Shown one piece after another: positions 1 to 35,142 of a stretch of 35,142 nucleotides of DNA. The DNA is from a virus: positions 1 to 35,142 of the IMG/VR virus record IMGVR_UViG_3300043409_000685; one strand, 5' to 3'. Every line of letters begins with the position of its first letter. Position 1 is the first letter of the stretch. The notes below the pieces were generated by a model. That model saw only the letters and a list, made by a program, of their open reading frames with translations. It was not told the DNA's origin and made no database searches. The translations under genes were made by a program, and so were the position numbers.

Positions 1-126
1 CGGATTTTATAATCTCGTAGCATCCATGCGCGCCAATTGGCGCGCATGAAAATCAACTAAATTGGAGTAAAACATGAACAAAAAACAGGCGCACGAGATT
101 CACGGCGGATTGACCCAAACGACAAA
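1..126. repeat. 126-bp direct repeat, left copy (right copy 34972-35097)
   Basis: Positions 1-126 are identical to 34972-35097. The repeat covers the last seven codons of the 34779 gene, a 24-bp palindrome, a ribosome binding site and the first codons of a following gene. After base 126 the copies diverge: the left continues into 127 onward, while the right continues for 45 different bases to the contig end. The contig begins exactly at the repeat, so its true left boundary is unknown. It can be a circular-assembly overlap plus a variant branch, or a real duplication. The length is one less than a common assembly k-mer (127), which favours the first reading. Confidence 0.9.
25..48. promoter_or_regulatory. 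24-bp perfect palindrome in leader between early genes
   Basis: A perfect palindrome with arms CATGCGCGCC / GGCGCGCATG around AATT; the second copy is at 34996-35019. In RNA it forms a very stable ten-pair hairpin. No T-run follows, so it is not a normal intrinsic terminator. It lies between the stop codon of the upstream small gene and the ribosome binding site at about 63-67. It may be an RNA-processing or stability element, or a protein binding site. Confidence 0.6.
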
Positions 127-139
127 CGGAGAAAATCGC
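74..139 (+). pseudogene. 5' remnant of a conserved phage gene (intact start at 35045)
   Basis: ATG at 74 follows a GGAG site (ATTGGAGTAAAAC). The first 17 codons are the same as in the gene starting at 35045. There they continue into KMPCKSYSLPT, the conserved start of a phage protein family. Here the reading frame instead runs via NGENR into the gene that has its own ribosome binding site and ATG at 140. I read 74-139 as what is left after most of the family gene was deleted. A 95-residue fusion (74-361) remains possible because the frame stays open. Confidence 0.55.
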
Positions 140-361
140 ATGAATACATTAGGTTGGAGCAGTATCAGATCGATCGGCAAAGCCGATAACGCTAATCGTT
201 GGTATCCCAGCGCCGACGTCGCGCCGTACTTTAGCAGCCTGCGCGCACCGTCGCGCGCATGGCCGCATTCGTACGCCAAGGCAGCGCAAACGAAGAAATT
301 TGCTGCCTGGTTGCTGGCCAATCGCCCGGAAATCGCTACTCGTCTGGGGGTAACGGTATGA
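140..361 (+). CDS. early hypothetical protein, 73 aa
   Basis: I do not recognise this protein. I chose ATG 140 because GGAGAAA sits seven bases upstream and because the in-frame region before it (74-139) looks like a deletion remnant of another gene. The product is basic and soluble, with many Ala, Arg and Ser, a W-Y-P-S-A-D stretch near residue 20 and no membrane segment. It is the first complete gene after the contig join and belongs to the plus-strand early unit. The stop codon overlaps the next start as ATGA, which suggests translational coupling. Proteins at this place in lytic phages often act on host functions, but nothing in the sequence shows which. Confidence 0.6.
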   Translation: MNTLGWSSIRSIGKADNANRWYPSADVAPYFSSLRAPSRAWPHSYAKAAQTKKFAAWLLANRPEIATRLGVTV

Positions 362-450
362 GAGAGGAAACGCTAGGCGAAGCAATCGCGGCGCTCGTGT
401 GCTGCGGTATCGGTACGGCGCTGCTGCTGGCGCTCGGTATTTTAATTTAA
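358..450 (+). CDS. 30-aa single-membrane-span peptide
   Basis: ATG 358 overlaps the upstream stop (ATGA). The product has an acidic head (MREETLGEA) and then an unbroken hydrophobic run of about 20 residues (IAALVCCGIGTALLLALGIL), so it should be an inner-membrane peptide. A Cys pair lies in the middle of the span. It is the first of three very short membrane peptides in this operon, all starting by ATGA overlap (see 1654 and 1887). Function is unknown; small phage membrane peptides include holin-like, superinfection-exclusion and membrane-enzyme regulator types. Confidence 0.55.
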   Translation: MREETLGEAIAALVCCGIGTALLLALGILI

Positions 451-466
451 TCAAGAGGATAAAATC

Positions 467-616
467 ATGGATATCATTCGCAAGTTTAAATACTCGCAGT
501 TTGACACCGGTTGGGCCGTGGTCGATGACGACGGCGACGTGCAGGCGTTTTTTGACGACGTCGAAGGCGACGACGACGCGGCGCTCGCGGCGGCGCGGGA
601 TTGGGTGCAATCATGA
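467..616 (+). CDS. early acidic protein, 49 aa
   Basis: ATG 467 follows a good site (AGAGGA, six bases before the start). The product is very acidic (runs DDDGD and GDDDAA) with aromatic residues near the N-terminus and no membrane span. Its first residues (IIRKFKYSQFDTGWAVVDDD) look like a small beta-sheet protein. Very acidic small early phage proteins include DNA mimics that block host nucleases or nucleoid proteins, so that is a possible but untested role. Its stop overlaps the next gene's start by ATGA. No family is recognised. Confidence 0.6.
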   Translation: MDIIRKFKYSQFDTGWAVVDDDGDVQAFFDDVEGDDDAALAAARDWVQS

Positions 617-837
617 GCCTTACACTTGAAGAACAGGAAAGAGCAGCGTTCGCCGACGGCAATTACGATCTCGCGCGCACGCTCGCTCGCGTGATTGAAT
701 TGGAGGACGACGCGTGCGAGCTGCGCGCGGCGGCGACGGACGACGCGCGCACAATCGAGCATATCCTGCGGATCCTGCGCGACGCGCTGGTTGATGACTG
801 CTGGCGTGAGCGGGCGGCGGCGGCGCTCGCCGAGTAA
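613..837 (+). CDS. early helical protein, 74 aa
   Basis: The start is taken at ATG 613, which overlaps the upstream stop (ATGA); the frame is open to 601 but has no better start. The product is Ala/Arg/Glu rich and almost surely all alpha-helical, with charged heptad-like spacing (ERAAFADGNYDLARTLARV, then ELEDDACELRAAATDDARTI). It could form a coiled coil. No domain is recognised. The GC content is high, with many GCG and CGC codons like its neighbours. Confidence 0.6.
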   Translation: MSLTLEEQERAAFADGNYDLARTLARVIELEDDACELRAAATDDARTIEHILRILRDALVDDCWRERAAAALAE

Positions 838-849
838 AGTACTCGGCTT

Positions 850-871
850 ATAGCGCCCGGGCGGGCGCTAT
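850..871 (+). other. GC-rich hairpin between early genes
   Basis: ATAGCGCCC and GGGCGCTAT form a perfect nine-pair stem around GGGC, eleven bases after the stop of the 613 gene. No T-run follows, so it is not a standard terminator. It fits an mRNA processing or stability hairpin, or a weak attenuator before the next gene at 910. Confidence 0.55.
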
Positions 872-909
872 GAGGCGCGCACTGCGTCGATAACCTGGAG
901 TCAACTAAA

Positions 910-1248
910 ATGCACACGTACACAATGCATGACAGCAAAGGCCAGCCGTTCGGCGCGCCGGTATCCTATACGCCCATTATTTTTATTTGCGGCACCACCA
1001 CGCACCGGCTGGCGCTCCACCGTGAGGCGGGCGCGGCGCCGGCGGCGTATCGTGAGTGGGCGGTATCGCACCCCATAATCGGCGCCAAGGTGTGCCGCGT
1101 TACCGGCACGGTCAGGGGATTACCGTGCAGCAGCAAGGGTTTAAACAGCAAGCAGGCGCGCGCGGCGGCGATGGCACAACTTGAGGCGCTGTGCGAGCGT
1201 ATCGGCGGTGCGAAGTTTAACGACACGATTAAGCAGGTGCGACCATGA
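910..1248 (+). CDS. early hypothetical protein, 112 aa
   Basis: ATG 910 has GGAG nine bases upstream (CCTGGAGTCAACTAAA). The product is soluble and basic. It has a beta-rich N-terminal half (SYTPIIFICGTTTHRLALHR) and a helical C-terminal half with K/R residues (SKQARAAAMAQLEALCERIG). I recognise no family. It follows a hairpin at 850-871 and a 72-base gap, so it may head a separately processed part of the early transcript. The stop overlaps the next ATG by ATGA. Confidence 0.65.
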   Translation: MHTYTMHDSKGQPFGAPVSYTPIIFICGTTTHRLALHREAGAAPAAYREWAVSHPIIGAKVCRVTGTVRGLPCSSKGLNSKQARAAAMAQLEALCERIGGAKFNDTIKQVRP

Positions 1249-1424
1249 TTATTACTCGAAAAACGGGGCTGGCGCTGATTCGCGCCAAAAAGGCGGTACG
1301 CGTTGGTCTGGTGACTTGCGGCACCGCAACGGGGGATCGCTTGTTTGTCTGCGTCACTCGTAGCGATTTGCAGCGGGCCGACCATTTTCCGGCGATTTAT
1401 AGAGACCAGCAGGTGCAACCATGA
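1245..1424 (+). CDS. early hypothetical protein, 59 aa
   Basis: ATG 1245 overlaps the upstream stop and its own stop overlaps ATG 1421, both as ATGA, so it sits in a translationally coupled chain. The product is basic with a short beta-rich core (RVGLVTCGTATGDRLFVCVT). No family is recognised. No separate ribosome binding site is visible, as expected for coupling. Confidence 0.6.
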   Translation: MIITRKTGLALIRAKKAVRVGLVTCGTATGDRLFVCVTRSDLQRADHFPAIYRDQQVQP

Positions 1425-1657
1425 GCGCGGCCATTGTTACCCGTTACCACGGGCCGACCGACACAAAAGGCGCGCGCGTGTCGGCGCGCATGATGGACGC
1501 GCGGCCCGTGTTCATCCCGTACGCGTACGAGTATAGCGAGCGGGACGCTCACGCGGCGGCTGCGGCGGCGCTCATGGCCCGCGAGGGCTGGCCCGTGGGC
1601 TGCCCGATGGCCGTGGGCGGGATGCCCGACGGCAGCTACGTGTTTGTACGCGAATGA
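1421..1657 (+). CDS. early hypothetical protein, 78 aa
   Basis: ATG 1421 is coupled to the gene before it by ATGA. The protein has an aromatic stretch (FIPYAYEYSERDAH), an Ala-rich helix and a Gly/Pro/Met-rich segment (GWPVGCPMAVGGMPDGSYVF). It is soluble with no obvious signal peptide. I recognise no family. Its stop overlaps ATG 1654 of a membrane peptide, again by ATGA. Confidence 0.6.
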   Translation: MSAAIVTRYHGPTDTKGARVSARMMDARPVFIPYAYEYSERDAHAAAAAALMAREGWPVGCPMAVGGMPDGSYVFVRE

Positions 1658-1713
1658 TCGCGCTCGGCGTGTTCCTGGTGCTGGCGCTGCTGGCCATCGT
1701 TTTTGACTTATAG
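1654..1713 (+). CDS. 19-aa membrane peptide
   Basis: ATG 1654 overlaps the upstream stop by ATGA. The whole product is MIALGVFLVLALLAIVFDL, a single hydrophobic helix just long enough to cross a membrane, with one acidic residue near the end. It is too short for normal gene calling. The coupled start and the similar peptides at 358 and 1887 support it being translated. Confidence 0.4.
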   Translation: MIALGVFLVLALLAIVFDL

Positions 1714-1722
1714 GGGTGCAGA

Positions 1723-1890
1723 ATGAAAAAATATATTCGACCATTTCGTATCGAAACGAACGGCGGGCGTATCGTCGGCCACGCCGGAGCAATAGAACAG
1801 GCAGAGTACATCGCCGGTAAAGGGCGGGGGCGGTGGGTGCTGCGCTGGTTGTACGGGAAATACATCGCCGTACGGCAGTACACATCATGA
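1723..1890 (+). CDS. early basic protein, 55 aa
   Basis: ATG 1723 follows AGGGGTGCAGA, a fair ribosome binding site. The product is strongly basic, with Tyr and Trp spread through it (MKKYIRPFRIETNG, then GRGRWVLRWLYGKYI). Charge and aromatic pattern would suit nucleic-acid or membrane-surface binding, but no family is recognised. Its stop overlaps the last gene of the unit by ATGA. Confidence 0.55.
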   Translation: MKKYIRPFRIETNGGRIVGHAGAIEQAEYIAGKGRGRWVLRWLYGKYIAVRQYTS

Positions 1891-1946
1891 TTTACGCGGC
1901 GATCGCGTTAATAATCCAATGGATTATTGACGTTCTGACGGAATAA
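1887..1946 (+). CDS. 19-aa membrane peptide, last gene of early unit
   Basis: ATG 1887 overlaps the upstream stop by ATGA. The product MIYAAIALIIQWIIDVLTE is a hydrophobic helix with an acidic tail. Its stop codon lies directly before the terminator at 1944-1976. The start geometry is the same as for the peptides at 358 and 1654. Confidence 0.4.
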   Translation: MIYAAIALIIQWIIDVLTE

Positions 1947-1976
1947 AAAAACGGGCCGAAAGGCCCGTTTCCTATT
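1944..1976. terminator. bidirectional intrinsic terminator
   Basis: The nine-pair stem AAACGGGCC / GGCCCGTTT (1949-1957 with 1962-1970) has a GAAA loop. An A-run on its left (1944-1951) becomes a U-run for minus-strand transcripts, and TTTCCTATTTT on its right serves plus-strand transcripts. It lies between two convergent operons: the early unit ending at 1946 and the replication unit ending at 1972. This is the clearest terminator in the window. Confidence 0.92.
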
Positions 1977-4260
1977 TTACTATCCGCAGTGCATCGGCCA
2001 GCGGCGAGCTTCCCGGCGGCGATTCTACCAGGCGGCGCAGTTCCGATTTCGTCGCGCGCGCCAGCTCGGGCGCGCAGTAAACATGGCGGCGCGTGGAATA
2101 CTCGGCGCTGGTGACGCGCCCGCAATCGAGCCATTGGCACTCGAGCAAGGCGTGGTGCAGGGCGGCGGCGGGAATCCGCTGGCCGGGGGCGAGGCCGGCG
2201 CGGAGCGTGAGGTCAGCGCACAGGACGTGAAAGGGGGCGGTGATGGCGCCAGCCTCGAACGGCCCCTCGCGGCCCCGGATCATCTCGCACAAAATTGATT
2301 CGGCGGGCGACTGGCCATTGGATATCAGGCTGAGCTTGTATTCAGTGATGGGCGGTGCTGCGGCCGGGTTGAACGCGCTCACGTCGCGGCGGTACAACCA
2401 GGCGGCGATTGCCTCGAAGCCGCCAGACTCGAACCAGCGCCACATCCGCTGGCCGCGCTCCGGTGGATCCATCCGGGGCAGGTCAGACCAGACACAGAAC
2501 CAGCGCCGATCCTGAGTATCCAGCACGATCGGCACCCGGTCGTTGCTGGACGCGATGACCAGGCACCGGTTTACGACGTTGTAGGGGTGTTGCATTTTTT
2601 TATTAACGAGGATGGTTTCCGGCGGCGCGGCGATGATCGGTTTTAAATGGTTGGCCAGCGCGCGGCGGTCCTTGGCCTCGCTCTCGCGCAGTTCGTGCAG
2701 GATGATGACCTCCGATTCGTAGGCGTAGCCCCACTGCGAGTTAATGGTGTTGTTGTTCAGTTCGCCCTTGTTGCGCCCCTGACCGCATAGCGCCCACAAG
2801 AACGGCGCCCAGAACGTGTCTTTTCCGGAGCCTTGATACCCGGCGATCAAAACGGCGTGGTTGATTTTGGTGCGCGGTTGCTGGAGCTTGCACGCCATGA
2901 CGTCGTAGATATGCTCGCGGTCAGCGCGCTCGGGGATCAGGGCGGCGCAGTGGTCGAGCCAGAGTGATATGTCGGCCTTCAGTTCGCGGTTCACCGGCGG
3001 GCGGGCGTCGCGCCACATGTTGCCGAACACGTCACCGTCGCGCGTCACCAGCACGTCGTCACCCGCTGAATAGGTGATGCCGACCAGCGCAGGCGCGCCC
3101 ATCGTCTGGCGGTTTTCGTCAAAGCAAATCGACGCCTCGACGCGGCGAGACTTGCCCTTGGCGTCGGTGTGGATGGAATGGCATGGGATGTGCCGGAACA
3201 GGGCATTGAACACCGTGCGCGGGATGTGGTGGCGCTCCTGCATATCGAAAAACGCCTCGTCGGACAGCAGGTAAGCGAACCGGGTGTACCAGCCAGCCTT
3301 TTCGACGCGTCCGATCTCTTTGCGCTCAACGGCGGCGATTAACGCCCCGGCCTCGGTGCTAGCGCTGAACAGGTCACCGGGTTTGAGTTTGGCCAGCGTC
3401 GTGGCCATCACGGCGGCGAGCAGCTCGTCGCGCAAGCCGGTGGTGTGGGCGGGCCCACCCTGCTCGGCCACCCAGGCCAAAAAGCGGGCGCTGTTCCAGT
3501 CCTGACAGTGCGCGTGGAGACAGGTGTAGGCGCGGTTGACGGGCATGTAACGGCCTTCGATCTCGCCGGTGGTGTGCGCCTCGCTGTTGGGGCAGACCAC
3601 GCCCCACCATCCGGCGGCGTTGCCTTGGGCGGTCAGGTGCCCGGCCTCGGACAGCCACGCCAGCACGTCGTCGCTGCCGTCGTCGTCGAGCGCCACCCGG
3701 CGCGCGGTGGCGGTGTCAGCCGGATCAGGTGTCACGCCCAAGGCGGCGCAGACCTGCTCGACGGTGAACTCGCGGTGCGGGTGGAACTCGGTCAGGATGG
3801 CGGCGAAGCGGTCGCGGCCCGGTTTGATGTTGACCGAACCGGGGATGCGCCAATTCCGCACGGCGTTGATCGCGCCGTCGTCGGTGTAGCCAGCAGCGGC
3901 GAAGGCACGCTCGGCAGCGGTAGCCACGGCCACCGGCACCTGCTCACTCAACACCCAGGCCCATTGGTAGTTGCCGGGTGAAGTTTCGATCTTCCATGTC
4001 GGCTCCAGCGGTGGCACCTTGCTCTTGGTGCCCACGTCATCGACGGCGAGGAACGTGACGTGAGTGCAATTGGCGGTGCTGGCTGAGATACCGCCGGTCA
4101 TGCGGTCAAGGATGAAGCTGCCACTGCTGACATACCACGCCTTGCCCTCGGCGCGGGGGGCGTCGGGCAGTTGCGGTATCCACGCTTTCGTTTTTTGCTG
4201 GACAAAAAGAACAGTTTCGCCCTCGGGGGCCAAGCTGGTTACAAATTCGATAAAATCCAT
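1972..4260 (-). CDS. primase-helicase (primase-like N-terminus, DUF5906/VirE-type helicase C-terminus)
   Basis: This 762-residue protein should prime and unwind DNA at the replication fork. Residues 68-76 (VTFLAVDDV) and 136-147 (NWRIPGSVNIKP) resemble motifs of archaeo-eukaryotic-type primases found in phage and plasmid replicases. A zinc-finger-like patch follows: C223, H229, C247 and C252 in CPNSEAH and CLHAHC. The helicase part has a Walker A loop GYQGSGKDT (474-482), a hydrophobic strand ending in HEL at about 524, and a sensor-like IASSND (569-574) with Arg residues near 585. I chose ATG 4260 because AGGAGA lies eight bases upstream; the longer frame to 4308 has no such site. It is the last gene of the replication operon and ends at the terminator. 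Confidence 0.85.
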   Translation of the reverse strand: MDFIEFVTSLAPEGETVLFVQQKTKAWIPQLPDAPRAEGKAWYVSSGSFILDRMTGGISASTANCTHVTFLAVDDVGTKSKVPPLEPTWKIETSPGNYQWAWVLSEQVPVAVATAAERAFAAAGYTDDGAINAVRNWRIPGSVNIKPGRDRFAAILTEFHPHREFTVEQVCAALGVTPDPADTATARRVALDDDGSDDVLAWLSEAGHLTAQGNAAGWWGVVCPNSEAHTTGEIEGRYMPVNRAYTCLHAHCQDWNSARFLAWVAEQGGPAHTTGLRDELLAAVMATTLAKLKPGDLFSASTEAGALIAAVERKEIGRVEKAGWYTRFAYLLSDEAFFDMQERHHIPRTVFNALFRHIPCHSIHTDAKGKSRRVEASICFDENRQTMGAPALVGITYSAGDDVLVTRDGDVFGNMWRDARPPVNRELKADISLWLDHCAALIPERADREHIYDVMACKLQQPRTKINHAVLIAGYQGSGKDTFWAPFLWALCGQGRNKGELNNNTINSQWGYAYESEVIILHELRESEAKDRRALANHLKPIIAAPPETILVNKKMQHPYNVVNRCLVIASSNDRVPIVLDTQDRRWFCVWSDLPRMDPPERGQRMWRWFESGGFEAIAAWLYRRDVSAFNPAAAPPITEYKLSLISNGQSPAESILCEMIRGREGPFEAGAITAPFHVLCADLTLRAGLAPGQRIPAAALHHALLECQWLDCGRVTSAEYSTRRHVYCAPELARATKSELRRLVESPPGSSPLADALRIVK

Positions 4261-4325
4261 GCTATAGTCTCTCCTGTTGTGGTGGTTGTTTTGGCGGCTC
4301 ACGGTCACTCCCCCGTGGGCCGTTT

Positions 4326-4619
4326 TTATTTACGGTGACCGCAAAACATTACCGGCCCCTGTCGGTGCGACATTTTATTTATCTGATCCATTTGCTTATC
4401 AGATAACTGCCGCCCCAATTCGATGCGGGCTAGGCACGAATCAACTATTGATCGTTCCATACTATTCTGATCTGGACGCTGGCTAAATTTATTGCCCGCG
4501 CAGATGTCTAGGCACTTTTCGTGCGCGCTTGCCAATTGCTTTTCGTAGTCGTTGTTGTCATTACCTTGAGCTAACGCAGCCTGTTTTTTAGCCTCGAAAA
4601 ACGCGCCCGCGAAAATCAT
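4326..4619 (-). CDS. hypothetical protein in replication operon, 97 aa
   Basis: The start ATG overlaps the polymerase stop as ATGA, with GAGG upstream. The protein is helical and charged, with many Gln and Asn (AALAQGNDNNDYEKQLASAH) and four cysteines (CLDIC, SC, FC). No signal peptide or membrane span is clear, and no family is recognised. It sits between the DNA polymerase and the primase-helicase, so a replication accessory role is possible on context alone. Confidence 0.7.
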   Translation of the reverse strand: MIFAGAFFEAKKQAALAQGNDNNDYEKQLASAHEKCLDICAGNKFSQRPDQNSMERSIVDSCLARIELGRQLSDKQMDQINKMSHRQGPVMFCGHRK

Positions 4620-6559
4620 TTTCCATACCTCGTCATAATCTTGATCTCAACGGCCAACGGCAGACCAGCGGCCCACTCATCCGGAGTACACATCACGCTA
4701 CGCATCCGCGCCACCGTTGCCTCGGCCATGCGCTCGGAACACTCGACAACAATCTCATCGTGGATATGCAGAATCACGTCCTCCAGTTGGCGCAGCGCGC
4801 CGCGCAATATGTCGTTCGCGGTTGCTTGGGTAGCGTTCTCGACGGCCAGCCCGCGCCACAGACGCGCGCGCGGCCACTCGGTCGCATCGGCGGCGGGCTT
4901 CCAGGACGCCTTCAGGTAGGACACCCCGTCGTTGTCGAGCTTGGCGAACGGGTAGCATAGCACCCGACCGGACGGCAGGGAATACCAAAGGTGCTGGCCA
5001 TCATATAAATAACACACCCGGCCAGCATGGCACTCATGCCCCTTGCGGAGCAAGGCGCGAGTGTAGGCGGCTTCCAGGTCTTGGCCGTGCTTCATGGCCC
5101 AGGGGTTGGCGCGGCGCCAGGTCGAAATAGCGCGGGCGATCTCACCTTCGGTCATCTGCACACCGTAGACGCGCCCGAAAGTCTCGAACGAACCGGGGCC
5201 ACCTAAGAAACCAAGCGCCAGCTCCTGCACCTTGCCGACCTGCCGCTGCGCGTCAGTTACTGCCTTATACCGGACGTTGAACGTCGAGGAGGCGTTGACT
5301 TTGTATGGGTCGAGGCCCAACCGGAACACGTCTAACTTGGCTTCGCCGGCGGGGCAGTTGGACAGCCACGGGTTCACACGGCCTTCAATCGCCGCCCAGT
5401 CGGCCACCACGAACACGTTACCCGGCGCCGGGACGAGCGCAGGGCGTAGCATCCCCTTTAGAACGTCCGTCACGCGCTTGCCATATGATGGCACAATTTG
5501 ATGCCCCCGCACCATAGCCTGCCGCACGGCAGCGGGGTCTTTTGCGGTCTTGCGCGTCAGGTTGTGGATCTGCGCGCCATAACTGGCAGCGCGGCCAGTG
5601 GCGCTGCCGCCGGCGAACACGAACGCACCGCGCACGCGGTCATCCTCAATGTCAGCAAGCGCGGCCAGCCGCTTGAACTTGGCAACACTAGACGCCCACA
5701 GGTCATCAGCGCACTGGATGACCTCGGCCACGTCGGGCGGCACCTCGTCGGGGCCGAGCGTGAGCAGGTTGGCGCGCACGGTCTTGTCGATCGAATACTT
5801 GATCTCGCCATCTACATGCCGGGTCATCAGCTTGACGGCCTCGGGGCCGACACGGGCCTGCACCCATTGCCGCATCCGGGGCGAGCGCACACTGGCAAGC
5901 TCACCCTTGGACACCTCGCGCACAATATCTTGTATCTCTTGCAGCTCGGCCTCGGCGTATCCTATCGCAGCGTCGCATAGATCGGTATCGACCATCACGC
6001 CACGGTCATTGATGCGCTCGTTGACGTGGTAGTCGGCCAGTTCTTGATCGGACAACGGGCGCAGGGACTGACTGACGGCGCGCATAGCGCGCACGTCCTG
6101 TTCGCAGTAGGCCACCATCTCGGCCATCAGTGTCGGGTCGTCGTTGAAGGTGCCGTCCTTGCGCGGGACGCACAAGAGGCGAATCAAGGCGGCGCCACGA
6201 TGGTCTTTACGCATCTTGCTGCTGACAGCGCGGCCTACATCCTCCAGACTGCCGGGTAGACAGTTAGCACGGGACTGCGCGGCGGTGCAGGTAAACCGCT
6301 CAAGCGGCGGCTCAACTAAGCCAAGCGTGGGGCATAACACATACCAAAAGACAAGCCGCTCGAAAGCGGCGTTGTGGGCCATGATCTGATGGCCGGCAAT
6401 GGCGGGGAACGGCTGACCCGGCAACCAGGTCAACACCTCGCCGTCATCGAAGGCGTAGGACATGCACAGCACCTCGGTGCTGGCATCCTGCGCGTAGTTA
6501 TAAACGCCGCGACTGGGTAAGTCGCAGCGTGATCGTGTCTCAAAATCGAGCCAGATCAC
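4616..6559 (-). CDS. polA: DNA polymerase, family A, with 3'-5' exonuclease domain
   Basis: This is the replicative DNA polymerase, 647 residues. The N-terminal proofreading exonuclease (DEDDy type) shows all three motifs: LDFET (D5, E7), HNAAFE (62-67) and YCEQD (Y151, D155). The polymerase domain has TGRAASYGAQIHNLTR (321-336), motif A DWAAIEGR (387-394), motif B RQVGKVQELALGFLGG (439-454) and motif C HDE (600-602). No 5' nuclease domain is present, as in other phage enzymes. The start is GTG 6559, with AGGAG eight bases upstream. It lies in the order nuclease, DUF2815-slot protein, polymerase, primase-helicase, a replication module widespread in phages. Confidence 0.95.
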   Translation of the reverse strand: MIWLDFETRSRCDLPSRGVYNYAQDASTEVLCMSYAFDDGEVLTWLPGQPFPAIAGHQIMAHNAAFERLVFWYVLCPTLGLVEPPLERFTCTAAQSRANCLPGSLEDVGRAVSSKMRKDHRGAALIRLLCVPRKDGTFNDDPTLMAEMVAYCEQDVRAMRAVSQSLRPLSDQELADYHVNERINDRGVMVDTDLCDAAIGYAEAELQEIQDIVREVSKGELASVRSPRMRQWVQARVGPEAVKLMTRHVDGEIKYSIDKTVRANLLTLGPDEVPPDVAEVIQCADDLWASSVAKFKRLAALADIEDDRVRGAFVFAGGSATGRAASYGAQIHNLTRKTAKDPAAVRQAMVRGHQIVPSYGKRVTDVLKGMLRPALVPAPGNVFVVADWAAIEGRVNPWLSNCPAGEAKLDVFRLGLDPYKVNASSTFNVRYKAVTDAQRQVGKVQELALGFLGGPGSFETFGRVYGVQMTEGEIARAISTWRRANPWAMKHGQDLEAAYTRALLRKGHECHAGRVCYLYDGQHLWYSLPSGRVLCYPFAKLDNDGVSYLKASWKPAADATEWPRARLWRGLAVENATQATANDILRGALRQLEDVILHIHDEIVVECSERMAEATVARMRSVMCTPDEWAAGLPLAVEIKIMTRYGK

Positions 6560-6569
6560 GCTGCTGCTC

Positions 6570-7220
6570 CTACGCTACAACCCGACGACGACGGCCCGCC
6601 GGCGCGGGGGCCGGAGCCTCTGCTGCCGGTGCCTCTGGCGCAGCGGCATCAGCAGTCAAGCTGACCCACTCTTTCACACCAAATGTCGGCGTGTAGATGC
6701 GGCCATACGACTTGTGTTGGTAATGCTCCTTACCCAACGTGATGATCGGCACAGGTGTGGACTGATCATGTTCCACCTGCACCGCGATTGCTACGGCCAG
6801 CTCCTGCACACCGCGCTTGCCGCCCACCGACGTGGTGGTGAACCGCGCTTCCATCCCGGCATCCTCACCGCTGATGCACTTCAGGCTCATGCCGACCTGC
6901 GTTTCCCAACCCTTCTTGGCGCCGGGAGGCGCCGCGTCCAGCTCCGGCAACGGATCGCTAACCGAGGCCATCTTCTCGCCCAACACCTCACCATCGCCCC
7001 AGGCGATGTAGCCGTGGACAAACGAGAACGGATTAACGGCCCACTGCGAACCGTCCTCGACTTCGGTCTGGTCTGCACCGAATACCCAGTGCCCGGTCTT
7101 GTCCATCTTGAGGATGACCATGCCCGAGGGGCCGGCAGCGGCCTCCAACTTGCGGAGCGATTGAGACAGGCTTGCTACTGCCGGGAGTCCTGCACCTGCG
7201 AACGTGACTAGATTTGACAT
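6570..7220 (-). CDS. putative DNA-binding replication protein in the DUF2815 slot, 216 aa
   Basis: No motif identifies this protein on sequence alone. It has an extended, probably beta-rich body (GHWVFGADQTEVEDGSQWAV, MSLKCISGEDAGMEARFTTT) and ends in a low-complexity tail of Ala, Pro and Glu followed by a basic end (GRRRRVVA). ATG 7220 follows AAGGAG. It lies directly between the DUF2800 nuclease and the family A polymerase. In many phages that position is held by a DUF2815 protein thought to bind single-stranded DNA. A role as ssDNA-binding protein is therefore inferred from position and the disordered tail, not seen directly. Confidence 0.7.
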   Translation of the reverse strand: MSNLVTFAGAGLPAVASLSQSLRKLEAAAGPSGMVILKMDKTGHWVFGADQTEVEDGSQWAVNPFSFVHGYIAWGDGEVLGEKMASVSDPLPELDAAPPGAKKGWETQVGMSLKCISGEDAGMEARFTTTSVGGKRGVQELAVAIAVQVEHDQSTPVPIITLGKEHYQHKSYGRIYTPTFGVKEWVSLTADAAAPEAPAAEAPAPAPAGRRRRVVA

Positions 7221-7231
7221 TACTTTACTCC

Positions 7232-8347
7232 TTAGATTTTAGAAAGAGCAGCGGTCAACTGCTGCCCGATTTGCAAAACCGCTGGCCTCGGATCTGACTC
7301 CGGTGCCAACGTATCGCCCGAAGAAACCGATACGACCAGTCCTTCAGGCAGATTCTGTTTTTTAGCCTTCAGCAGTTTTTCTGCTTGGGCCGGTGAAACA
7401 ATTGCCAATTTCATAGGGTCAACGCCTAATGCGTTCAAGGCATCTGCCGCCTTACCTTGATCGACCCAACTGCGTGTGCCACGCTTTGCAACCAGTTTCC
7501 AGCCGGGTATTTTATAACCCTTCTCGATCTTGGTCTGCACCAGCGCGTTCAGGTCATCGATCCAACCCTGCAACAGCACGGCGTTGGACGCATACACGCC
7601 TAGCATGTCGTCGTCGATGGCGTCGAGCTTGACCTTCAGCGCCCGGTCTACCGCGCCGGTCATGGCGGGGCAGGTCGGCTTGGCAGGGCAGAACTTGCAA
7701 TGCGAACCCGGCTTCAGCGCCGCGTCGGGTAGACTGGCTACCTTTACCGCCCGTTTCAGATCCTTCTCGAACGCCTTGATGCGCGCTGGCGTGGTCGTCC
7801 AGCGCCGTATCACTGGCGGCTGGATGATGACGCACTCGATACTCGTAGCGCCTTCAAACACCCACGCCGCCTCGGGCGTACGCATAGCCGCAGCGGCGTA
7901 ATACATAAGCTGCTCGTTTTCTTCTGCGTCAACGGCAATGCCATCGCCGAACTTCCAGTCGATGACATACGCCGTGTCACCCAAGCGGCCCAACACGTCG
8001 CAAGATCCGAACGCACCCGGCAGGTAAGCACCAAACCCGACGCGTGTCTCGATCGCGTATTGCATCTGCCATTCGGGGTCGAGCGTGTCCAGCAGATCCA
8101 GCGCGGGCTGAAGCTTCTGGTCGATCATATCTTGATCGAGTATCTGCCCCTCGTATTCCCTGCCGATCAATTCCGCAGGCATTTTGTCATCCAGCAGCAC
8201 CTCGCTGATGGCATCGTGCAGCAGTGTGCCCTTGTCGGCGTAGGTGCTGCTTGGTGCCGGTGGTGCCAGTTTTACCAACGCCACGCTGCCGGGGCAGTTC
8301 ATCACGCGCTTGGCGGTGCTACCGCCTACAACTGTAGAGTGTTGCAT
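7232..8347 (-). CDS. DUF2800 family nuclease (PD-(D/E)XK, Cas4/RecB-like)
   Basis: This 371-residue protein matches phage DUF2800 proteins, which belong to the RecB/Cas4-like exonucleases and probably process DNA ends during replication or recombination. Visible features are the N-terminal SxxxRxxxCPGS signature (STAKRVMNCPGS, 10-21), H44 in ADKGTLLHD, the catalytic pattern around GSCDVLGRL and VIDWKFG, QLMYYAAAA downstream, and a C-terminal Cys cluster HCKFCPAKPTCP that would hold a zinc or iron-sulfur site. Its start overlaps the upstream stop by one base (TAATG) with GAGGAGA before it. Confidence 0.9.
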   Translation of the reverse strand: MQHSTVVGGSTAKRVMNCPGSVALVKLAPPAPSSTYADKGTLLHDAISEVLLDDKMPAELIGREYEGQILDQDMIDQKLQPALDLLDTLDPEWQMQYAIETRVGFGAYLPGAFGSCDVLGRLGDTAYVIDWKFGDGIAVDAEENEQLMYYAAAAMRTPEAAWVFEGATSIECVIIQPPVIRRWTTTPARIKAFEKDLKRAVKVASLPDAALKPGSHCKFCPAKPTCPAMTGAVDRALKVKLDAIDDDMLGVYASNAVLLQGWIDDLNALVQTKIEKGYKIPGWKLVAKRGTRSWVDQGKAADALNALGVDPMKLAIVSPAQAEKLLKAKKQNLPEGLVVSVSSGDTLAPESDPRPAVLQIGQQLTAALSKI

Positions 8348-27822: not shown

Positions 27823-28026
27823 TTACCAACCCGCCAAGTCTGCATACTTCTGACCGTCCTCGCCACAATCAACGAGGAATTCGTCTTTCTGTTCTGCGCT
27901 GTAGTTGCGGCACTTTACGCGCTTGAGTTCTTTAGGGACATCGTTCTCATCCAGCACTTCCTCCAGCCACGTACCTTCTAAGGTGTTTGACTTGATGTCG
28001 TGACACACTGCGGCTAAGTATTTCAA
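27823..28026 (-). CDS. hypothetical protein, 67 aa, TTG start
   Basis: TTG 28026 has AAGGAG seven bases upstream and overlaps the fibre stop (TTGA). The protein has a beta-strand N-terminus (KYLAAVCHDIKSNTLEGTWL) and an acidic C-terminus (FLVDCGEDGQKYADLAGW). No family is recognised. A gap of 38 bases separates it from the 27784 gene. Confidence 0.6.
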   Translation of the reverse strand: MKYLAAVCHDIKSNTLEGTWLEEVLDENDVPKELKRVKCRNYSAEQKDEFLVDCGEDGQKYADLAGW

Positions 28027-30191
28027 GATGTTGCTCCTTTGTGAATGTTGAAGTTAAACTGAATCGCATCGGATAACGATCCAACTGTGTCGTTCCGTAG
28101 TTTTATAATTACAGTGCCAGCACTCCACGCGCTTGCTTGTAATGTGTAATTAACAAAGTTACCCGAAGAAGAATTAAGATTAACTGTGATTGTATCTGCT
28201 GCCGCAAGTATGGAATTGTTTAAGGTAAAAGTCACCGTTGTTAGTCCACCCAACGCTGCGCCATTCATCGTTATTGTTCCACAAGGCTTGTTCAACGTTA
28301 CAGCAGTACTCTTATCCGTTGCCTGTGTAACCGTCCCACCAGCGCCTGTGCCGTAGCCTAGACCTGCGACATTAGTAACAAGCACGTTGCCGCTGGAGTC
28401 GATACGCATACGTTCTGCAAGAGTATCGCTAACTCGTGTTTGAAACACCATTGCGCCACCAGTGCCGTTGGTGGTGGTGTTCACTGCATCAATTTCAGCA
28501 AGCGTCCTTATGCTTGTATCTCTGGCTTGAAACAACAATGAAGCCGCCGTTACTCCAGAGACAGTTGTATCGCCTGTACCGTCGTGGATGCTCAACTGAC
28601 CGGCTGTAGCAGATGCGCCTTTTACCTCAAGTTTGTAAGCCGGGGCAGTCGTCCCAATGCCCACTTGGTCAGACGAATTAACAGTTATCGCCATAAACCC
28701 TTGATTAGGCCCATAGCCACGACCAATCTTTAACTTCGCACTATCGTTGTCATCGATCCCGAAATACCAATTTGCTGAAGCGCTACTGTTTAGCAGCTCG
28801 TAGGAAGGAGAATATCCGGAAGCTCGCACTGTGGGGGCAGAACCGACTGTGCCTGTAGGTTTTGTAATGTACAGACCCACTGATCCCGCACCGGATTGGT
28901 CTATTTGCAACTTTCCATTTGGCGAACTCGTCCCAATCCCCACATTGCCGCTGCTGGTTGCAAAGTTGGAACCGATTGTCGAACTTAACGAAGTAAACGC
29001 ACCCGTAGTCGGAAGCGTAAAGCCTACAGTGCCGTTAATGTTGATGCTGGCAGTGCCGGTGAGGTTGGTTACTGTGCCGGAGGCGGGGATGCCTAGAATT
29101 GCACCGTTACCTAGCGTGGCTACGCCTGTGACTCCAAGAGTGCTAGAAAATGTGCCGGTGGTAAACGCACCCGCCAGCGGAGTCGTAGCGCCCACAGTGC
29201 CGTTAATGTTGATACTGGCAGTGCCGGTGAGGTTGGTTACTGTGCCGCTGGACGGTGTGCCGAGCGCACCGCCGTTGACGACAAACGCACCAGCAGTTCC
29301 GGTATTAACTCCCAACGCGGTAACGACACCTGTCCCTGTGGTCGTAGTGGCTGGAGCTGCTCCAGCACCGCCGCCCAGGACTAACGCGCTGGCAGTAAGC
29401 GCAGCCGATGTTGCCCAGGTAGACGCGCTTGAAAAGTAAGGTACGCCGCCGCTGGTTCCTGCCACGGTCAACGCCAAGGTGCCGGATGCGGTGATCGGTG
29501 AGCCAGCAACCGAAATTAAGCCGCCAGTGAAGGACTGCGCCACGCTGGTAACCGTGCCGCCGCCGGATACTGTGGCCCACGATGTAGCCGTCCCGTTGGT
29601 GGTCAGGAACTTGCCGCTGTTGCCCGTTTGCGACGGAATGAGTGCTGTGATCTGCGCTTGCAATGACGCCAGCGTGTCCAGCACATACTGGGATGTGCCG
29701 CCGCCACTAGAAACAATCTTGATCTGCTCGGCCAGCTCGGGCGCTACCACTTCGCCAACATTCATTTCGACGCCGGTAGAAAGCGAGATTACCAGGCTAC
29801 CGTCGAAGTCGATGCGCGCGTTCGTGACCGACACGCCGTCGGCGCCATCAGCGCCATCTGTGCCGTTGCGTCCGTCTGTGCCCTTAATGCCGGGTGCGCC
29901 ATCGCGTCCAGCCTTGCCATCCTTACCTGGCTTGCCGTCGCGCCCATTGGCGCCATCACGACCATCCTTGATCGTTATGACCCGCTTCTCAATCGCGTTG
30001 CCTACGGAATCAAACCGTTCTCGTATGTCTGACTCGATCTTCTTCAACGCTTCGACAACAAGCTGCACGTTTTCGGCAACCTTTTTGCGCTGCATGTCCT
30101 TAACTTCGGACACCGAATTATTCACTACGCCAAACACATTATCAGCTATGCCATCGATGTTACCGTCGCTGAACATTTTATCGATATCCAT
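28023..30191 (-). CDS. collagen-like tail or head fibre, 722 aa
   Basis: Residues 1-75 form a helical head (VKDMQRKKVAENVQLVVEAL). Residues 77-119 are fifteen uninterrupted Gly-X-Y triplets (GRDGANGRDGKPGKDG and so on), a collagen-like trimer stalk. A long Ser/Thr/Gly beta-region follows with repeated modules (GTVTNLTGTASININGTVG twice, 56 residues apart) and VGIGTSSPNGKLQI-type fibre repeats. The C-terminus is beta-rich. It should be an elongated trimeric fibre. The gene lies between portal and scaffold rather than with the tail genes at 20.7-23.7 kb. The start overlaps the portal stop (TAATG). Confidence 0.85.
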   Translation of the reverse strand: MDIDKMFSDGNIDGIADNVFGVVNNSVSEVKDMQRKKVAENVQLVVEALKKIESDIRERFDSVGNAIEKRVITIKDGRDGANGRDGKPGKDGKAGRDGAPGIKGTDGRNGTDGADGADGVSVTNARIDFDGSLVISLSTGVEMNVGEVVAPELAEQIKIVSSGGGTSQYVLDTLASLQAQITALIPSQTGNSGKFLTTNGTATSWATVSGGGTVTSVAQSFTGGLISVAGSPITASGTLALTVAGTSGGVPYFSSASTWATSAALTASALVLGGGAGAAPATTTTGTGVVTALGVNTGTAGAFVVNGGALGTPSSGTVTNLTGTASININGTVGATTPLAGAFTTGTFSSTLGVTGVATLGNGAILGIPASGTVTNLTGTASININGTVGFTLPTTGAFTSLSSTIGSNFATSSGNVGIGTSSPNGKLQIDQSGAGSVGLYITKPTGTVGSAPTVRASGYSPSYELLNSSASANWYFGIDDNDSAKLKIGRGYGPNQGFMAITVNSSDQVGIGTTAPAYKLEVKGASATAGQLSIHDGTGDTTVSGVTAASLLFQARDTSIRTLAEIDAVNTTTNGTGGAMVFQTRVSDTLAERMRIDSSGNVLVTNVAGLGYGTGAGGTVTQATDKSTAVTLNKPCGTITMNGAALGGLTTVTFTLNNSILAAADTITVNLNSSSGNFVNYTLQASAWSAGTVIIKLRNDTVGSLSDAIQFNFNIHKGATS
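29026..29079 (-). repeat. 54-bp repeat inside fibre gene (second copy 29194-29247)
   Basis: The two 54-bp copies differ at a single base and are 168 bp apart, so the repeat keeps the reading frame. They encode the GTVTNLTGTASININGTVG module. Near identity at DNA level suggests recent duplication or gene conversion, a way to change fibre length. Confidence 0.85.
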
Positions 30192-34008: not shown

Positions 34009-34233
34009 GGAGCCAGCGGGCCAGCGGATCCGCCAGCCAGCCAGCCAGCGGATCCGCCAGCCAGCCGACGAGCCGACGAGCCAGCCAGCCAGCCGACGAG
34101 CCAGGCGAGCCGGGCGAGCCAGGCGAGCCGACCAGCCGACGAGCCGACGAGCCGACGAGCCGACGAGCCGACGAGCCGACGAGCCGACGAGCCGACGAGC
34201 CGACGAGCCGACGAGCCGACGAGCCGACGAGCC
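34009..34233. repeat. low-complexity region with 8-bp tandem array
   Basis: From 34009 the sequence is built of CCAG and GGATCCG-containing units, then of the 8-mer AGCCGACG. From 34134 to 34233 the 8-mer repeats perfectly for 100 bases (12.5 units); earlier copies at 34063-34133 are imperfect. Because 8 is not a multiple of 3, all three plus frames encode the same 8-residue repeat (RRADEPTS) and none contains a stop; the minus strand is also open. I see no ribosome binding site before it, so I treat it as noncoding. Together with 33835-34008 it fills the 447-base gap between terS and the 34282 gene. Confidence 0.9.
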
Positions 34234-34497: not shown

Positions 34498-34611
34498 TGT
34501 ACTCTATAGGCACTATTAGCTACTTTTGACCCCGGTAAAAGTCGCGCCCACAGAAATCCGGGTACCTACTACTAATATCTAATAAATGTACCAAACAGTT
34601 TTGTGATCTAC

Positions 34612-34639
34612 TGAAATATAGCTTATTACTGATATTTCA
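34612..34639. promoter_or_regulatory. inverted repeat in divergent early/late control region
   Basis: TGAAATAT (34612-34619) and ATATTTCA (34632-34639) are perfect inverted arms with a 12-base spacer, inside the 281-base gap between the leftward late unit and the rightward early unit. A second pair GGTAC / GTACC lies nearby (34561-34565 and 34588-34592). A protein binding here could switch between the units. Confidence 0.5.
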
Positions 34640-34696
34640 ATGCGTTGGCGCTGTCGCGCGGCAAATAAAACTGCAAAGTTTGCACGTTAAAATTAT

Positions 34697-34725
34697 TTGT
34701 GACGAAAAAGCTTGCAAAATAGAAT
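34697..34725 (+). promoter_or_regulatory. sigma70-like early promoter
   Basis: TTGTGA (34697-34702), a 17-base spacer and TAGAAT (34720-34725) match the -35 and -10 consensus at four and five of six positions. Transcription would begin near 34732 and give a leader of about 47 bases before ATG 34779. It is the best host-type promoter in the window and would drive the early unit through the contig join. Confidence 0.65.
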
Positions 34726-34778
34726 CAGGCATGGTGAAATGCTCTTGCTGTCCCGAAAATCAACTACAGGAAACTACC

Positions 34779-34991
34779 ATGAACAAATCCGAAACACGCG
34801 AATTGAATAAACTGATTGCCCTTGCAAATGCAATAGCTGGCACCGATTCGCGCCATTGTGTGGCATATCTGGCACGCGGCTATAGCGCGCTAATCCGTGC
34901 TACGCGCACAACGAACTCGCGCGATCACATGCTCGATTGCGCTCAACGCAATCCCGCCGTAATCGCGCACCCGGATTTTATAATCTCGTAG
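34779..34991 (+). CDS. first early gene, hypothetical conserved-type protein, 70 aa
   Basis: ATG 34779 follows AGGAA by seven bases. An in-frame ATG at 34731 would be at the predicted transcript start, so it is unlikely. The product (NKSETRELNKLIALANAIAG, VAYLARGYSALIRATRTTNS, then VIAHPDFIIS) is helical and basic and resembles small early proteins found in many phages and plasmids, all of unknown function. Its last seven codons lie in the 126-bp repeat, so it directly precedes the gene start at 74 / 35045. Confidence 0.7.
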   Translation: MNKSETRELNKLIALANAIAGTDSRHCVAYLARGYSALIRATRTTNSRDHMLDCAQRNPAVIAHPDFIIS

Positions 34992-35097
34992 CATCCATGC
35001 GCGCCAATTGGCGCGCATGAAAATCAACTAAATTGGAGTAAAACATGAACAAAAAACAGGCGCACGAGATTCACGGCGGATTGACCCAAACGACAAA
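34972..35097. repeat. 126-bp direct repeat, right copy
   Basis: This copy is identical to 1-126. Here it is preceded by the rest of the 34779 gene and followed by 45 bases not found elsewhere in the window. Joining this copy to the left one closes the genome at 34,971 bases. Confidence 0.9.
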
Positions 35098-35142
35098 AAT
35101 GCCGTGCAAATCCTACTCTTTACCTACAATCGCGTGCGTTAC
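35045..35142 (+). CDS. 5' end of intact conserved phage gene (runs off the window)
   Basis: ATG 35045 follows GGAGTAAAAC. The 32 visible codons begin NKKQAHEIHGGLTQTT and continue KMPCKSYSLPTIACVT. From memory, a family of phage proteins starts with GGL(S/T)xxxKMPxxSYxLPAxxCxxG and goes on with a CxxCYA motif; its function is not known to me. The fit is good over the short part visible. The same first 17 codons at 74 lead into something else, so this is the likely ancestral form of that locus. Confidence 0.6.
   Translation, partial: MNKKQAHEIHGGLTQTTKMPCKSYSLPTIACV

Follow-up and report, generated by a model that had tools for sequence, protein, structure and literature searches.

The window analysed here is the whole of one virus record, 35,142 bases long, and its two ends share the start of a gene before they diverge. 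Positions 1-126 and 34972-35097 form an exact direct repeat of 126 bases that carries a GGAG and an ATG, with the start at 74 in the left copy and at 35045 in the right one. Past the left copy, the sequence continues with CGGAGAAAATCGCATG, a GGAG at 128-131 and, at 140-142, the ATG of a 73-aa open reading frame (ORF, 140-361). Past the right copy, 45 bases run to the end of the contig and extend the frame opened inside the repeat, which from the ATG at 35045 encodes the 32 residues MNKKQAHEIHGGLTQTTKMPCKSYSLPTIACV. The two 45-base continuations share 10 of 45 bases; elsewhere in the window, the right-hand tail finds no ungapped match better than 26 of 45. A sequence-only reading of this record had proposed that the contig ends carry two versions of one locus, that the repeat includes the start of a gene of a phage protein family, and that the left end jumps at 127 to the ribosome-binding site (RBS) and ATG of another gene; all three points are borne out, and the gene that starts in the repeat is identified below as GP88 (PF17338). 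The features of the locus, in window coordinates, are as follows.

1-126, no strand: left copy of the 126-base end overlap, an exact direct repeat.
25-48, second copy at 34996-35019, no strand: perfect 24-base palindrome ahead of the GP88 start, evident in the sequence.
74-361, plus strand: fusion frame of 95 aa, open throughout, made up of GP88 residues 1-17, NGENR and then, in frame, the 73-aa protein.
126/127, no strand: putative deletion junction, GACAAA followed by CGGAGAAAATCGCATG, placed by comparison of the two ends and by the intact order in relatives L208, L209, L224 and L252.
140-361, plus strand: conserved phage protein of 73 aa (MNTLGW...), next after GP88 or one small gene later in four relatives; 17 related viral loci, 56-84% identity (L252, 77%).
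34779-34991, plus strand: gene for 70 aa that precedes the GP88 start; several other phages have distant homologues (35-41%) ahead of their GP88.
34972-35097, no strand: right copy of the end overlap (exact direct repeat), with leader, palindrome, RBS and GP88 codons 1-17 plus two bases.
35045-35142, plus strand: 5' part of an intact GP88 gene, 32 residues of which are encoded before the contig stops (GP88 profile, E=3.8e-13).
35098-35142, plus strand: tail present at the right end alone; it encodes GP88 from codon 18 onward (the repeat supplies two bases of that codon, the first and second) and reads in frame KMPCKSYSLPTIACV.

The assignment of the right-end frame to GP88 rests on homologues because the 32-aa fragment by itself matches no Pfam family and no PHROG family. 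In a tblastn search against phages (E≤10), the fragment gave three weak matches, namely, gp33 of Pelagibacter phage HTVC027P (E 0.03), phage 023Pt_psg01 (E 1) and Flavobacterium phage 1/32 (E 8). The first two belong to PF17338 (2.5e-28 and 3.4e-34, respectively), and the alignment with the fragment covers their N-termini; the window contains just these 32 residues of GP88, and Pfam itself does not report them. Intact relatives match the same family (L208, 5.2e-25; L011, 5e-23), with intact homologues scoring 82.6-119.1 bits against a cut-off of 24.4; no NCBIfam family exceeded its own cut-off. We collected GP88 loci from scans of viral contigs for a KMPCKSYSLP-type motif, for the terminase and for the 73-aa protein, and from phage isolates. 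This yielded at least 131 GP88-matching loci, a count that includes repeats of one contig and the two isolates. A script took the frames at 119 of these to be complete, one of just 87 aa; 73 sequences were left after near-identical and odd-length ones were dropped, and the alignment comprises 71 of them, without the isolates L005 and L006, which were omitted for the structure job. When the window was searched with the profile of the 71 relatives, the right-end peptide was found at E=3.8e-13 and nothing else matched at E≤10, so that there is no second GP88 copy. The peptide scores 47.6 bits against this profile, compared with at most 22.7 bits for 1,000 controls in which the 45 tail bases were permuted as single bases and stops were read as X; residues 18-32 contribute 22.6 bits when scored separately and the 17 repeat-coded residues 10.9 bits. 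The concern that the tail might be unrelated DNA is answered by its in-frame GP88 sequence, and a random chimeric tail is rejected on the reading frame together with the profile score.

Residue conservation points the same way. The positions that reach 95% among the 73 sequences within residues 1-32 are T16, K18-C21, S23-P27 and C31, and all 11 are present in the right-end peptide, with positions 18-27 of the profile being biased because many of its members were selected by the scan for that very motif; part of the 47.6 bits draws on members so selected. L208 and L209, retrieved through the 73-aa protein and hence independently of the motif, share the window's GP88 continuation. Identity to the window in the repeat-coded part and in the tail is 39/53 and 37/45 for L208, 39/53 and 35/45 for L209, and 45/53 and 32/45 for L011. 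A scan for HGGLTQTT returned 24 hits, and all 15 that are GP88 starts run on into KMP, from which the left end of the window differs; the other 9 hits were judged by eye not to be GP88, and some of the starts represent two loci of near-identical contigs. Intact relatives also contain, in the part of the protein past the end of the contig, the CxxCYA motif and a C-terminal cysteine cluster; C45, C48, A50, C184, C193, C196 and C199 are invariant across the 71 homologues. Thus, the earlier suggestion that the right end enters the conserved continuation of a phage protein family holds, on the strength of the profile match and of CxxCYA in the intact relatives.

The order of genes in relatives bears on which of the two ends is the intact allele. 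In L208 and L209, GP88 is followed by a 57-aa ORF and then by the homologue of the 73-aa gene; in L252, a 97-aa ORF occupies the intermediate position, and in L224, the homologue comes directly after GP88. Because these four relatives have an intact GP88 upstream of the 73-aa homologue, the right end is best read as the intact allele and the left end as a derived deletion that retains 17 GP88 codons, the retention of this stub being the reason to regard the deletion as the derived state. The left end was already taken for a deletion allele in the sequence-only reading, and it has the corresponding structure: the GP88 leader, start codon and 17 codons are kept and joined at the RBS of the next gene, and the resulting fusion frame at 74-361 scores 9.6 bits against the GP88 profile. 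L252 resembles the window piecewise on both flanks (81% over 34506-34774; 79-91%, in larger pieces, from 138 to 6000) and does not have the 70-aa gene. The sequence-only reading placed the changeable gene at the head of the early operon: in L252, GP88 is the first gene past the shared leader, whereas in the window it would come after the 70-aa gene at 34779-34991. The piece missing from the left end corresponds to 614 bases in L224 and, by arithmetic, to about 880 in L208 and 930 in L252, which suggests a loss of about 0.6-0.95 kb and an intact genome of about 35.6-35.9 kb. The prediction that the right-hand path rejoins the left one near 127-140 stands in part: judging from the four relatives, it would do so about 0.6-0.95 kb on, but in three of the four one extra small gene intervenes.

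GP88 is variably present at this position and in related genomes. Among the loci found through the 73-aa protein, a GP88 match lies upstream in 3 of 17, some of the loci holding little upstream sequence, and in L210, L211, L212 and L216, which were read in detail, four other small ORFs occupy the place of GP88. Among 80 records with a relative of the window's terminase, mostly fragments, GP88 was found in 7 (2/40 and 5/40); of the 6 that reach at least 30 kb, 1 has it. Of two records near 35 kb in length, both with a terminase at 97% identity, the one of 35,117 bases is without GP88 and the one of 35,218 bases has it. L009 is a relative that lacks GP88 and has a terminase at 97% identity; in its early region, positions 7432-8124 (minus strand) encode a protein that matches the central domain of the DNA polymerase III beta clamp (E 1.4e-7).

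All 1,310 terminase matches among phage records are under 60% identity, and in a host search, the terminase pattern occurred in 7 genome contigs, none confirmed as a relative. The sole phage record with DNA similarity to positions 1-8000 (E≤1e-5) is Podoviridae sp. ctNMl277 (MW202483.1), at 66% identity over 14%. It shares with the window a terminase, then a block of small genes mostly on the plus strand, then primase and DNA polymerase on the opposite strand; its matches fall at 2354-5659 of the window, and none at the GP88 locus. Scans with exact 50-base and 32-base patterns for a second contig with the intact allele returned none, in a search that may leave out near records. Elsewhere in the window, a GC-rich tandem repeat, mainly of 8-base units (GACGAGCC and variants), lies at 34012-34233 between the terminase genes and the small plus-strand genes, and a 104-base direct repeat (28993-29096 and 29161-29264, 84% identical) lies within a large minus-strand ORF, 28023-30191, which has a collagen-like stretch.

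Inverted repeats that by eye resemble the window's palindrome precede GP88 in L208, L209 and L011, and other hairpins, also judged by eye, precede neighbouring early genes in relatives. In L208 (2779-3088) and L209 (4226-4540), a hairpin and GGTCAACACTGGCCAATA-like spacers recur, again by eye, after GP88 and after the next ORF; these recurring elements are a possible substrate for recombinational loss or exchange of genes. An Rfam search gave nothing at gathering score, and scans for promoters and terminators near the locus remained at chance level.

How the two alleles came to stand at the ends of one contig can be approached through the ends of other records. We compared 27 records of at least 30 kb, hand-picked from the loci (at least two more of that size, G081 and G087, were left out), and found an end overlap in 18 of them, 13 of which have 123 or 127 bases, as listed here.

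No overlap: 9 records.
123 bases, flush: 7 records.
127 bases, flush: 5 records.
117 bases, flush: 1 record.
127 bases plus a 447-base divergent tail: 1 record.
126 bases plus a one-mismatch stub: 3 records.
64 bases plus a one-mismatch stub: 1 record.

Overlaps of 123 and 127 bases are presumably linked to particular assemblers. The window's 126 bases come close to these lengths and equal the three stub cases, and because the other overlaps are mostly of 123 or 127 bases, a biological terminal repeat is disfavoured; the 126-base repeat is probably an assembly overlap. This agrees with the account of circular viral contigs in the CheckV paper (PMC8116208), where fixed odd-length terminal repeats are considered likely to be assembler k-mer lengths. 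The overlap and the gene order fit a closed circle of 34,971 bases, and closure yields the order terminase, small genes, primase, as in L011, with the order from GP88 to primase as in L208. The ends are, however, not flush and identical, as those of a complete circular or terminally redundant genome would be: 45 surplus bases follow the overlap at the right end, and they are not homologous to the other end. The short stubs of four comparison records are near copies of the other end with a one-base difference, and in G098 (41,532 bases), the 127-base overlap gives way to a tail of 447 bases, 369 of which agree with the other end, so that the ends of this record seem to hold two strains; none of the 18 overlapping records has a non-homologous tail like that of the window. 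The window resembles the class with 126 bases plus a stub, yet its stub agrees with the opposite end at 10 of 45 bases, a structural rather than a single-base difference. This supports two alleles that diverge at a fork, where the contig probably broke.

We propose that the record was assembled from a mixed phage population, with GP88 intact in one part and deleted in the other, and we put the probability of this reading at roughly 75%. The phage would have a genome of about 35 kb, and its assembled circle would have been broken where the population is polymorphic. In some of the genomes, GP88 would follow the 70-aa gene (34779-34991) and precede the 73-aa gene (140-361), from which one small gene may separate it. 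In others, GP88 would have been lost from codon 18 to a point just ahead of the RBS of the 73-aa gene, presumably by ordinary illegitimate recombination, leaving the GP88 leader, the start codon and 17 codons in an in-frame fusion with the downstream gene. With both alleles being, most likely, members of one population, the assembly graph would fork where they diverge, so that the contig's first 126 bases lead up to the fork on the deletion path and its last 45 follow the fork on the intact path.

Two related phages that share at least 126 identical bases, only one of which has GP88 next, could have produced the same contig if the assembler crossed between them. The early region is indeed mosaic, with relatives differing in the gene that directly precedes the 73-aa gene; L252, close to the window in the early region, has no terminase match (in a search where no record matched and that had no positive control); and the 447-base tail of G098 agrees with its other end at just 369 positions. 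However, the five relatives compared are 71-85% identical to the window in the repeat-coded part plus the tail, and therefore, an identical stretch implies a far closer genome than any found, so that we regard such a cross-over as unlikely. We are still less inclined to see one of the junctions as technical, that is, as a chimeric read, an amplification artefact or a misassembly, even though the left junction is backed by 126 bases of upstream sequence and the right one by 45 bases: the right tail is in frame and carries conserved GP88 sequence, and the left junction falls on the RBS of the very gene that comes after GP88 in relatives, neither of which is to be expected of a random chimera. 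A chimera between homologous templates is a possible variant of the technical explanation.

Given the palindrome just ahead of GP88 and the hairpins that, by eye, precede neighbouring genes in relatives, a programmed or recurrent on/off switch of GP88 through excision could also be envisaged, but the junction lies inside the coding sequence, away from the palindrome, and the deletion is absent at 15 other GP88 starts, which makes a switch highly improbable.

The sequence-only reading had placed the variable gene among those exchanged for host takeover or anti-defence; the family, motif and structure comparisons made here turned up nothing that bears on either role, and GP88 looks, weakly, like a radical-SAM-type Fe-S protein. 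The AlphaFold model of the L208 protein, built from the 71 sequences, has a mean pLDDT of 93 and six strands of at least 3 residues. Foldseek found no match to it in the PDB at E≤0.001, its top rows being xylanases and other barrels, with 7bi7, an entry from nitrogenase-cofactor work, ranked 15th and viperin 44th. In a second look with VIA-align, radical-SAM proteins, several of which we take to be of that class, make up 14 of the best 15 rows, led by QueE (Z 6.8, 3.8 Å over 140 residues); a Z under 8, however, may reflect no more than a common arrangement, and many of the radical-SAM rows are tied with a chitinase (Z 5.2). The GP88 sequence matched no solved structure. All 71 sequences have cysteines spaced as CX13CX2C behind the first strand and as CX8CX2CX2C close to the C-terminus, and HDSGD follows the second strand in 60 of 71, with a near variant in the others. 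The spacing CX13CX2C departs from the canonical radical-SAM CX3CX2C motif; for QueE, a CX14CX2C variant and a six-strand core are described (PMC4389238), against the CX13CX2C and the six predicted strands of GP88. Thus, with a confident model and invariant cysteines on one side, and a Z below 8 and other barrels in Foldseek's own top rows on the other, the data weakly suggest a radical-SAM-like Fe-S protein as the leading idea. BFVD proteins named 'Gene product 88 domain' that match the model come from tailed phages, a Nitrosopumilus spindle-shaped virus and Halogranum tailed virus 1. We recognised no publication on GP88 or PF17338 in a literature search whose coverage leaves out most subscription journals. 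Quite tentatively, and with more doubt than confidence, GP88 may be pictured as a widespread viral family of small enzymes of radical-SAM type, in which the cluster loop is extended and four cysteines form a second site; here, the gene would segregate as present or absent in one phage population, in a slot where small genes are swapped among relatives.

The biology at this locus is ordinary variation of phage gene content, made more interesting by the unstudied GP88 family. The end of a contig can record a difference in gene presence that a flush-end test of circularity would miss, and the locus would offer a natural deletion contrast for a family that occurs in phages and, judging from the BFVD names, in archaeal viruses. 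The radical-SAM resemblance, if true, would be the first biochemical hypothesis for GP88, and if the protein is of this type and segregates in the population, its selective cost or benefit might be read from allele frequencies over time.
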